A stretch of DNA of 64,000 nucleotides from Thermoplasmatota archaeon (GTDB lineage Archaea > Thermoplasmatota > Thermoplasmata > Thermoplasmatales > Thermoplasmataceae). The position numbers and the translations under genes were made by a program. The stretch is from contig JAMDDH010000037.1 in the NCBI GenBank assembly GCA_023488885.1, forward strand, positions 62,001 through 126,000, given 5' to 3'. The notes under the pieces were generated by a model that saw nothing but the letters and a program-made list of their open reading frames with translations, ran no database searches and was not told the origin of the DNA. This document shows, one piece after another, positions 48,136 through 51,825 of the stretch (positions are counted from its first letter, which is position 1; each line of letters opens with the position of its first letter).

Positions 48136-49392
48136 ATGACTTCACTTCTCATTGAGAACGCGTCCCAGATTTTGACCATGGCGGGAGCCGGATGGGAGCC
48201 GCTAACAAGGCAGAAGCTGAAAAAAATCAGGATACGGAAAGATGCCGTCATACTTGTCAGGGATGGGAAAATCTCAGAAATAGCCGATTCAACCAGATCG
48301 GAATTGCTGAAAACAAAATACAACCCGGAAATAATTGATGCCAGGGGAAACCTTGTGATGCCCGGGCTTATCGATTCCCATACACATGCCGTATACGGCG
48401 GAACAAGGGAAGAAGAATTCTATATGAAGGCCAGGGGGAAGAGTTATCTGGAGATACTGACCTCGGGAAACGGAATCTACAGAACGGTAGAGCACACAAG
48501 GAATTCCACGATTGACCAGATATTTTCGCAGAGCCTAGCGAGGATTTATGACGCCATAAATTTCGGCACCACTTCAATGGAGATCAAGACAGGATATGGC
48601 CTGGACCTTGAAACGGAAACAAAGATGCTTGACGTGATAAACAGGATATCCGCTATCGGCATCATGAACATAATTCCCACATTCCTGCCTCTTCACGCTA
48701 TTCCAAAGGGAAGCACTGAGAATTCTTATGTTCACGAGGTAATAGAGAAAATACTTCCTAAATTTAAGGGGAAAACAGCATTTGTTGACTGTTTCTGTGA
48801 CAGGGGAGCATTCTCTGCCGGCGTAACAGATGAATTCTTCAGGGCGGCCGAAAGCATGAACATTCCGCTGAGAATGCATGCTGATGAGCTGGGAGACATA
48901 GGGTGTCTTGACCTGTGTGATAAACACAGGATCAGGAGCGTGGATCACCTCCTGTTCACGGGGGACTCCGGAATTGAAAAGATAAGGAAAAGCGGTTCAG
49001 TTGCAACTTTCCTTCCAATTACCGCATTCAACATTTCAGATGGCAGATACCCTGATATTGGCAGGTTCATAGAAGCAGGCGTGCCGATTGCGATTGCAAC
49101 AGATTCTTCGCCCGTTTCATACAATACCAGCCTCTTCTTTGCCGTATACCTTGCCATAAGGTTCTGCAAAATTTCCGTGGAGGAGGCACTTAATGCAATA
49201 ACCGTCAACGCGGCCTTTTCTCTCGGGATACAGGAATCTGCGGGGTCAATAGAACCTGGAAAACGCGCTGATCTGATCATACTTAATGTTGACGACTACA
49301 GGAAGATACCTTATGAATACGGTTCCAGGCTCGTCAACACCGTGATAAACAACGGTGAGATCGTGATGAGGAACGGTGTGTTCACTCTCTGA
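48136..49392 (+). CDS. hutI: Imidazolonepropionase
   Basis: The 418-residue amidohydrolase carries LVMPGLIDSHTHAVYGGTREEEF (metal His pair), LEIKTGYGLDLETETKM, RMHADELGDIG, VDHLLF and the ATDSSPVSYN motif, all of HutI. It hydrolyses imidazolonepropionate to formimino-glutamate, the third step of histidine degradation. No other hut gene is in the window. The start at 48136 matches the leaderless promoter and the family length. The next gene reading frame begins at its stop. Confidence 0.92.
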   Translation: MTSLLIENASQILTMAGAGWEPLTRQKLKKIRIRKDAVILVRDGKISEIADSTRSELLKTKYNPEIIDARGNLVMPGLIDSHTHAVYGGTREEEFYMKARGKSYLEILTSGNGIYRTVEHTRNSTIDQIFSQSLARIYDAINFGTTSMEIKTGYGLDLETETKMLDVINRISAIGIMNIIPTFLPLHAIPKGSTENSYVHEVIEKILPKFKGKTAFVDCFCDRGAFSAGVTDEFFRAAESMNIPLRMHADELGDIGCLDLCDKHRIRSVDHLLFTGDSGIEKIRKSGSVATFLPITAFNISDGRYPDIGRFIEAGVPIAIATDSSPVSYNTSLFFAVYLAIRFCKISVEEALNAITVNAAFSLGIQESAGSIEPGKRADLIILNVDDYRKIPYEYGSRLVNTVINNGEIVMRNGVFTL

Positions 49393-49500
49393 TGTTGGAG
49401 TTCATCCTGCCGCCGGGAGAGCCCCTCCTCCTGTGCCCCGTACCGTCAGATAATCAGGAGACCGGGAAGACCGGCCATGAATTCCAGTATTCCGATTATC

Positions 49501-49510
49501 TCTTAATAGG
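49501..49510 (+). promoter_or_regulatory. TATA box deciding the dph2 start
   Basis: TCTTAATAGG is centred about 25 nt before the TTG at 49530, where similarity to Dph2 begins. The frame is open from 49392 but the extra 46 residues have no counterpart. Confidence 0.45.
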
Positions 49511-49529
49511 AGATTCGCATTCTCAACAA

Positions 49530-50537
49530 TTGAACATCACGATCGACGAGGTTATCAGTAAGCTTGACGAAATCAGAGCCAGGAAGATTCTACTTCAGCT
49601 GCCGGACGGTTTGAAGCCTCATGTATTTGATTACTTCAGCAGACTTTCTGAAAAATTCTCTGTTATTGTTAGTTCAGAGCCGTTCTACGGCGCATGTGAC
49701 ATAAGCACAATGGATGTCTACAAGGACGTGGATTGCATAGTCCAGCTGGGGCACTCCGAAATACCCAATATAAAATACCCGAAACCTGTAATATTCATGG
49801 AATATCGGGTGCAGAGAGAAATAGAGATTGACGATCAGGTCTTTCAGACACTAAAAGAGAAAGGTCACAAAAAAATCGGTCTTCTCTGCTCTGTCCAGTA
49901 TGTTGACCAGATGCATCAGGTCAAGGGAATCCTGGATCGCATGGGCTTCGAGACGCATATAGGCCGCCAGGACGCACGGATGAAACATCCCGGACAGGTA
50001 CTTGGCTGCAATTTCAGTTCTGCGCATTCAATATCCACAAATGTCGACTGCTATGTTGTGGTCAGTACGGGAAAGTTCCATGCCATCGGTGCACAGCTTG
50101 CATCTGACAGGGAGGTTTTCATTCTGGACATGAACGAGAGAAAGCTCATACCGATAAAGGATGAGACAGACAGGTTCCTCAGGCGAAGATATGGAAAAAT
50201 TTCAAGAGCCAGGGATGCGCAAAAGATCTGCGTTGTAACAGACACAAAGATCGGGCAATACAGGATCAGACTGGCGGAAACAATTATGGAGCAGGCAAAG
50301 TCACTGGGCATGCAGAGCATCCTTCTCACTGCCAACGACATCAGGCCATCTGACTACGAGAACATGAGGTGCGATGCCGTCGTGTTCACCGGCTGCCCAA
50401 GAGTATCCATTGACGAGCAGGACAAATTCACGATGCCCATCCTGACGCCACCGGAATTCCAGCAGCTTTTCGGATTTAAAAAAACGTCTAAATACATAAT
50501 GGATGAGATAGTCGCTGTTGACAGGCTAAATTCATAA
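49530..50537 (+). CDS. dph2: Diphthamide biosynthesis enzyme Dph2
   Basis: The 335-residue protein starts near ITIDEVISKLDEIRARKILL and carries the three cluster cysteines of archaeal Dph2: FYGACDIST, PGQVLGCNFS and FTGCPRVS. The family uses a non-classical radical SAM [4Fe-4S] centre to transfer the 3-amino-3-carboxypropyl group to the histidine of elongation factor 2, the first diphthamide step. The TTG start at 49530 fits promoter and family length; the ATG at 49392 that touches the hutI stop is the alternative. Its end overlaps the convergent tRNA methylthiotransferase by 6 bp. Confidence 0.9.
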   Translation: MNITIDEVISKLDEIRARKILLQLPDGLKPHVFDYFSRLSEKFSVIVSSEPFYGACDISTMDVYKDVDCIVQLGHSEIPNIKYPKPVIFMEYRVQREIEIDDQVFQTLKEKGHKKIGLLCSVQYVDQMHQVKGILDRMGFETHIGRQDARMKHPGQVLGCNFSSAHSISTNVDCYVVVSTGKFHAIGAQLASDREVFILDMNERKLIPIKDETDRFLRRRYGKISRARDAQKICVVTDTKIGQYRIRLAETIMEQAKSLGMQSILLTANDIRPSDYENMRCDAVVFTGCPRVSIDEQDKFTMPILTPPEFQQLFGFKKTSKYIMDEIVAVDRLNS

Positions 50538-51737
50538 GGTTTTTCCAATAAGGTAAGTGCCGGCCTGATCAACAATTTCAACCTTTATTCTTGAATAAAG
50601 GTCATGGTTTCCGGGAACAACGACCGGTCTGTAGGCATGATCCCTTCCAACGCTGGTGCCGGACCTGCCTTTCTCGGTTATCATCAATTCCTCCTCCCGC
50701 CCGATTATGCTTAACAGTTTCTCGCGAATTATGGATTTGTGGGTCGCCGAATACTCACGTGTCCATCTCTTTACCGAATTTGAAGGCGGGACGATCCTGT
50801 CATAATCCGGCGTGAACGGCCTCGGAGAAAAACGGGTTATGTTGATTATGTCAGGGCGGGTTTCATGTATCAGCTCCATTGTATTGAGGAAGGATTCGTC
50901 ATCCTCATCATGATACCCTGAAATTATATCGGTGGACAATGTGCTGTCCGGGAATCTGTCCCTGAATTTTGACACAATATCTCTGAAAACTCCGGTATTG
51001 TATTCCCTGTTCATTAGTTCCAGAATCCTGTCATCTCCGCTCTGAACCGGCACGTGAAGAAACTTGAAGACCCTTCTGTCCGACAGCCTGTCCAGGAGCC
51101 TGTCAATGATCAGTGCGGCATTCTTTGGCTCCATCATCCCCACTCTTATCATGAAATCTTCGTCTATGGCCAGCATGTCACCCAGGAGAACGTCCAGCGT
51201 GATCCCCAGGTCCTTTCCGTATGCAGCCGTATCCAGGGAGGTAATTCTCACTTCACGTATCCCTCTGTCAAGTTGCATCCTCACCTGATTCACAATCTTT
51301 CCGGGAGGCCTGGACACAAGTTTTCCTCTTGCTACCCTGGATATGCAGTAATTGCATGACCCCGTACATCCCTGATTGATGGGTATTCCATCAAAAATTG
51401 ATGGTTCCCTGATCTCGATATCATCAAGCTGACCGGAGTAGAATGACCTGAAATCCCTCGGCTTAAGGGCCTCAATCCTTTCGCTTTCAAGCTCACCTCC
51501 GCTGACGGAGGGAAGACAACCTATAACCCTGACCTTTGAGTCCCGTGAAAGGTTTCCTATTCTAGAGATCATCCGGTCCTGTGTATGCTTTATCACAACG
51601 CAGGTGTTGATAATGCTGAGATCGGCTTCCTCCGGAGATTCCACAAGATAATTTCCTTCACTGATCATTTTGTTCACGTAAAGACCTGCCTCCGATCTGG
51701 AAAGCGTGCAGCCGTACGATTCAAAGTAAATTTTCAG
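50532..51737 (-). CDS. tRNA methylthiotransferase (MtaB/CDKAL1-like), apparent CTG start
   Basis: The 401-residue radical SAM enzyme puts the methylthio group on t6A37 of tRNA. The N-terminal cluster domain has cysteines at about 10, 46 and 74 (ESYGCTLSR, INTCVV, VIGCLPS), the radical SAM cluster is GCTGSCNYC (124, 128, 131), and a TRAM-like domain ends the protein. The only GTG/ATG starts (51677, 51668) would delete the first cluster cysteine. The frame remains open to a CTG at 51737 that gives KIYFESYGC, the exact family N-terminus, and AGGTG lies seven bases ahead of it. aspA is upstream on the same strand. Confidence 0.85.
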   Translation of the reverse strand: MKIYFESYGCTLSRSEAGLYVNKMISEGNYLVESPEEADLSIINTCVVIKHTQDRMISRIGNLSRDSKVRVIGCLPSVSGGELESERIEALKPRDFRSFYSGQLDDIEIREPSIFDGIPINQGCTGSCNYCISRVARGKLVSRPPGKIVNQVRMQLDRGIREVRITSLDTAAYGKDLGITLDVLLGDMLAIDEDFMIRVGMMEPKNAALIIDRLLDRLSDRRVFKFLHVPVQSGDDRILELMNREYNTGVFRDIVSKFRDRFPDSTLSTDIISGYHDEDDESFLNTMELIHETRPDIINITRFSPRPFTPDYDRIVPPSNSVKRWTREYSATHKSIIREKLLSIIGREEELMITEKGRSGTSVGRDHAYRPVVVPGNHDLYSRIKVEIVDQAGTYLIGKTL

Positions 51738-51744
51738 CCGGGAA

Positions 51745-51749
51745 CACCT
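51745..51749 (-). promoter_or_regulatory. Ribosome binding site supporting a CTG start
   Basis: AGGTG on the reverse strand (51745-51749) is seven bases before the CTG at 51737. No other ATG, GTG or TTG codon in this frame lies between this site and the first cluster cysteine codon (51708-51710). Confidence 0.55.
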
Positions 51750-51825
51750 GTCTACGCGGTAAAACAGTATAACCTATTTCTGGTTTACGCAAAAAATGGT
51801 CTGAAACCATTGGCTAGGCAAAAAA

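Follow-up and report, generated by a model that had tools for sequence, protein, structure and literature searches.

The window, the 64,000-nucleotide stretch of DNA analysed here, comes from an uncultured archaeon and carries on its minus strand a single open frame (51773-50532) that encodes an archaeal MtaB-type tRNA (t6A37-C2) methylthiotransferase. Read from a CTG at 51737, the gene, mtaB, occupies 50532-51737 (-), stop codon included, and specifies a protein of 401 residues. The predicted protein scores 410.1 bits against TIGR01578 (MiaB-like-B; cut-off 314.7), which bears out the initial annotation of the frame as a tRNA methylthiotransferase. The Pfam domains UPF0004 (60.1 bits, cut-off 27) and Radical_SAM (68.7, cut-off 29.5) are present, and the C-terminal TRAM domain, at 20.2 bits, falls just under its cut-off of 21. 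The activity expected of the family is methylthiolation of t6A37 or hn6A37. The gene is single-copy, being the sole TIGR00089 match over cut-off in the 1.86-Mb draft genome; the next match is a weak one of 23 bits. Numbered from the CTG, the cysteines are Cys10, Cys46 and Cys74 in the N-terminal domain and the radical-SAM CxxxCxxC at 124/128/131, whose cluster roles we assume to be those of the MiaB family. In the family alignment Cys10 (TGC, 51708-51710, (-)) is the first cysteine of the N-terminal domain, in the motif YGC, and it aligns with the YGC cysteine of the MiaB chain 7mjz_A. At the distal end, a convergent plus-strand ORF (49392-50537, 381 aa) finishes inside mtaB, its last six bases (50532-50537) overlapping the mtaB stop.

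The mtaB frame opens at 51773, after a TAG. The codons before 51737 are GTT ATA CTG TTT TAC CGC GTA GAC AGG TGT TCC CGG, and from 51737 the frame continues CTG AAA ATT TAC TTT GAA TCG TAC GGC TGC, the last of these being the Cys10 codon (51710-51708). Between the upstream TAG and that codon there is no in-frame ATG, GTG or TTG, so that reading of the frame confirms the earlier observation that the first cysteine lies upstream of every canonical start codon. The first canonical codon downstream is a GTG (51675-51677, (-)) and the second an ATG (51666-51668, (-)), which lies after Cys10; both are rejected as starts for the reasons given below. A Shine-Dalgarno-like AGGTG (51745-51749, (-)) stands at offset -12 with seven bases between it and the CTG, at the coordinates and spacing originally described. 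Further upstream, AAATA (51775-51779, (-)) is a possible, weak TATA-like box; in the genus sample, AT-rich hexamers are most frequent near -32 to -25 relative to gene starts. If this box is real, the leader would possibly be short, some 10-14 nt.

The start region was compared across six genomes of the genus, namely the window genome, that of a sister species (G002, contig JAMDBW010000087.1; locus L031/L002) and those of four other congeners. The mtaB genes of the sister and the window are identical at 1,060 of 1,203 bases (88%) and differ at 143, and 375 of the 401 residues of the proteins are the same. The sister has the same CTG at the homologous position (51735-51737, (-), in the window), and the 18 bases of leader ahead of it, GTAGACAGGTGTTCCCGG, are identical too. 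The homologous codon is TTG in the other four congeners, each time after a differing leader. In a protein tree of 23 rows, the two CTG species group together (100/99), as do the four TTG species (100/99). It is noted that, 13 codons ahead of its CTG, the sister also carries an ATG in the same frame (L031:2962-3000), which is not conserved. The window has no start codon at that place, and its reading frame there differs by an indel. Since this stretch of the sister is indel-shifted relative to the window and shows no coding constraint, we read it as leader; the ATG is probably spurious as a start, though it could serve as one in the sister.

The comparison was extended to the family, in which 71 of 77 genomes have an mtaB match. 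N-termini were read at 70 places in 69 genomes, the window's own included, with two rows from one genome (G084). Two genomes were left out, one for a match without an N-terminus (G097) and one for a match broken over frames (G012). At the codon homologous to 51737, the 70 rows have 39 ATG, 8 TTG, 2 GTG, 2 CTG and 19 other codons, and each gene in the last group has a canonical start upstream. The initial annotation had named orthologues that begin with ATG at exactly this codon as support for the CTG start; 39 of the 70 rows do so, and the four congeners have TTG. Non-ATG starts at the homologous codon make up 12 of the 70 rows, with no demonstrated excess over expectation. The window gene is the only one of the 70 rows without a canonical start either at codon 1 or before it, and the cysteine aligned with Cys10 is kept in every row (70/70). 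The match in G012 (C7:16117-17336) is split over frames with several stops, which suggests either a disrupted gene or an assembly error in that genome.

The pattern of substitution indicates where coding constraint begins. In codons 2-20, all of which lie upstream of GTG 51677, the window differs from the five congeners by 3, 10, 9, 14 and 11 base changes, of which 3, 9, 8, 13 and 10, respectively, fall at third positions; the sole amino-acid change is one R/K. Because these changes are almost all synonymous, codons 2-20 are concluded to be translated. The 14 triplets before the CTG, compared without gaps, behave differently, with changes at all three positions numbering 15 to 29 per 42 bases. 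Considering that codons 2-20 are near-synonymous and the upstream triplets unconstrained, coding constraint starts at or beside the CTG. Over the whole gene, the window and the sister differ by 99 synonymous and 26 non-synonymous codons, which argues that mtaB is not decaying.

The initiation signal was evaluated against the genus as a whole. AGGTG is complementary to the CACCT of the 16S tail, GGATCACCTCCT, which is present in four congeners and in the window genome, there in a 3' fragment at the end of contig C25. A full-model 16S search gave no match in the window or sister genomes and missed this 3' fragment; matches in contig C14 and in the sister that were considered as 16S proved not to be 16S. 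The duplex of AGGTG with CACCT is estimated at -6.4 kcal/mol, and the leaders of the TTG congeners range from -3.7 to -6.3. Among 592 upstream regions taken as a sample from three genomes of the genus, with starts chosen by a crude rule that favours ATG, AGGTG is commonest at -12 (12 regions; 10 at -10). A Shine-Dalgarno match of at least 5 bases at -16 to -4 precedes 110 of the 592 sampled gene starts, and a match of the same length and position precedes 4.55% of 33,624 CTG triplets in the sampled DNA. Given that background, and a window match of just five bases, the Shine-Dalgarno element alone is weak evidence for the start. The strong evidence is conservation, that is, the CTG in the sister and the TTG in the four other congeners.

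Taken together, these observations suggest that translation of mtaB very probably begins at CTG 51737 and that the gene is intact. The initial annotation had proposed this CTG as restoring an MKIYFESYGC N-terminus, and the proposal is supported by the sister's CTG, by homologues that start at the same codon and by the constraint on codons 2-20. Its alternative of an A-to-C change or sequencing error fares poorly, as two species with 143 differences in 1,203 bases share the CTG and the other congeners have TTG. On the same grounds, the start is best regarded as a real but small oddity and not as damage; the conserved CTG is probably functional.

Several other starts can be weighed against CTG 51737. 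GTG 51677 and ATG 51668 are the first canonical codons in the frame, and a protein begun at the GTG still scores 380.3 bits against TIGR01578; as this exceeds the cut-off of 314.7, annotation software would probably accept it. The enzyme would then be without its first cluster cysteine, or the gene would be a decayed pseudogene. We regard either outcome as very unlikely, given the constraint on codons 2-20 and the invariance of Cys10, and given that the GTG is no start codon in four of the six genus species (GTC or GTA in the four congeners, GTG in the sister) and that the ATG is TTA in one congener (G001). Initiation at another near-cognate codon that lies in frame before the cysteine (ATT 51731, or upstream ATA 51770 or CTG 51767) would preserve Cys10, and near-cognate starts such as AUU do exist, switches to AUU having been counted in a survey of prokaryotes (PMC5622118). 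However, the third codon is ATA in three of the six genus members, the two upstream codons are unconserved and are cut off from the gene by the indel in the sister, and only CTG 51737 combines the usual Shine-Dalgarno distance with the position of the relatives' start codons, so that this possibility is less likely again.

A canonical start could also be made after transcription, by C-to-U editing to UUG, in which case the edited codon would equal the TTG of the congeners, or be reached by a frameshift from the out-of-frame GTG 51747. No supporting feature was found for either on reading the sequence, the GTG 51747 frame runs into a TGA after eight codons, and we know of no archaeal mRNA editing of this start-codon kind; both routes are highly improbable. 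To a misread ATG or TTG we give next to no weight. The window genome is a draft in 66 contigs, where an error of sequencing or assembly is conceivable, but the separate contig of the sister, different at 143 of 1,203 gene positions, carries the same CTG.

Initiation at CTG 51737 thus remains the preferred reading, and it raises the matter of how the codon arose. The deeper branches of the 23-row protein tree are not resolved, so parsimony cannot decide the direction of the change between TTG and CTG. Most likely a TTG start became CTG in the common ancestor of the window species and its sister, a course preferred because it takes a single transition. With TTG as the nearest alternative codon, a T-to-C change is likelier than the A-to-C considered initially.

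We propose the following course of initiation for the CUG. The 30S subunit would bind the short leader through pairing of AGGUG with the CACCU of the 16S tail, and this pairing would bring the CUG into the P site. There the ordinary initiator Met-tRNA (anticodon CAU) could initiate in spite of a first-position mismatch, so that the CUG would be read as Met. The product would begin MKIYFESYGC and so contain the cysteine that presumably serves as first ligand of the N-terminal iron-sulphur cluster. Synthesis is expected to be low, which would be tolerated, as a tRNA-modifying enzyme can probably bear a low yield. The scheme agrees with the initiator tRNA genes of the genus, which look ordinary. 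The anticodon arm of the initiator tRNA, GGGCTCATAACCC, occurs once per genome in all six genus genomes, each time within a tRNA-Met, and the initiator tRNA of the CTG pair differs from that of the other congeners only outside this arm, as read by eye. An altered initiator tRNA was considered as the cause of the CTG start and set aside because the arm is identical in all six.

Other candidate causes were also examined. A search for SUI1 (PF01253) gave matches in all four TTG congeners but none in the two CTG species, and the related model TIGR01158 had no match in the window genome, which made loss of the fidelity factor aIF1 a candidate. In one congener (G004) the SUI1 gene lies two genes from that of ribosomal protein S3, inside an apparent ribosomal protein operon; S3 was confirmed by PF00189, and the names of the operon genes are otherwise our own presumptive reading. 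A protein search did not find S3 itself in either CTG draft, and PF00189 has a match in each of the four remaining congeners. Both genes are missing although the window genome is rated 92.5% complete. Since this nearby gene is missing too, the missing aIF1 is best explained by a gap in the drafts, and its loss was rejected as the cause. Compensation of non-ATG starts by a stronger Shine-Dalgarno element was looked for in the genus sample, where matches precede 30 of 73 TTG, 15 of 58 GTG and 192 of 461 ATG genes; no enrichment over ATG genes was seen. A switch from leaderless to leadered transcripts that would enable non-ATG starts was set aside: the positions of the AT-rich box and the Shine-Dalgarno element are suggestive, but TTG genes are no richer in Shine-Dalgarno matches than ATG genes.

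To see whether CTG starts are a habit of the lineage, 384,184 bases of the window genome, about one fifth of it, were scanned against 466,616 bases of two congeners. An initial comparison was dropped because shadow frames swamped the result (146 candidates in 228 pairs). A stricter scan retained 72 coding-like orthologue pairs, mtaB included, of which nine, mtaB and eight others, have at least 12 aligned codons before the first canonical codon. These eight and one further pair with 11 codons were inspected. One extension runs antisense to a long open frame that we take for tryptophan synthase beta; each of the others is followed by a canonical codon common to both species and lacks a clear coding pattern. 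No second CTG-type start was found in the 72 pairs, that is, in partnered genes with extensions of at least 12 codons, and one of 11, within one fifth of the genome.

The case bears on annotation and on experiment. Gene callers commonly accept no start codons other than ATG, GTG and TTG, and would therefore cut the enzyme at GTG 51677, with loss of the conserved cysteine; in the sister they may extend the gene to the upstream, probably spurious ATG. The locus offers good support for a natural archaeal CTG start, with one other archaeal suspect found in the open-licence literature, and the four TTG congeners are ready controls for testing start-codon discrimination in archaea. A speculative and very improbable further reading is that the weak start acts as a sensor, synthesis of MtaB from CUG or UUG reporting on the enzyme's own modification pathway. 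The target of MtaB is A37 in tRNAs that decode ANN codons. In the initiator tRNA gene of the genus A37 lies beside U36, the base opposite the first position of the start codon. Such a sensor could work if the modification state of A37 altered the strictness with which UUG or CUG is accepted. The t6A modification has been said to aid AUG recognition (PMC9654439), and in a Candida albicans cyclic-t6A mutant more ribosomes were reported on CTG, GTG and TTG, which in its authors' view may indicate more non-AUG initiation (PMC11064501).

Compared with archaeal MtaB-type methylthiotransferases, the window enzyme has its start codon as the sole unusual feature; it is an otherwise ordinary enzyme from an intact gene. 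The characterised archaeal enzymes reported in one account are MJ0867, MA1153 and an ANME-1 enzyme (PMC10702137), and the likeness to them runs through the TIGR01578 family, the domains and the cysteines, not through direct comparison with MJ0867 or MA1153. The same account reports that a deletion of MA1153 was obtained in Methanosarcina acetivorans (PMC10702137), so that the initial description of the enzyme as essential-looking finds no support. With regard to CUG itself, CUG complexes in E. coli are reported to be less stable than those with AUG, GUG or UUG; with a variant initiator tRNA they assemble in the normal frame, though with lower stability, and according to that report initiation on CUG is inefficient with the variant and the wild-type initiator tRNA alike (PMC11497404).

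Though rare, CTG starts are known, and the window mtaB adds one more probable case. A search of the open-licence literature, where absence shows little, yielded no paper on start codons in Thermoplasmatales. A reconstruction over 36 prokaryote groups by Belinky, Rogozin and Koonin (2017) gives switches to CUG for 1 of 2,468 UUG, 2 of 61,358 AUG and 1 of 5,080 GUG starts (PMC5622118). The present start resembles those cases in being a switch to CUG among close relatives; unlike the cases as described there, the CTG is common to two species, and the start is tested by a conserved cysteine that precedes all canonical codons. Among archaea, HVO_1510 of Haloferax volcanii is suspected of an in-frame CTG start or of slippage from an out-of-frame ATG (PMC8305020). 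Both are archaeal genes for which a CTG start is proposed, and the ortholog set of HVO_1510 is reported to have major start-codon problems. The two differ in the kind of evidence: HVO_1510 has peptides upstream of Met-93 (PMC8305020), and the window mtaB is judged by the TTG and ATG of its relatives at the same codon.
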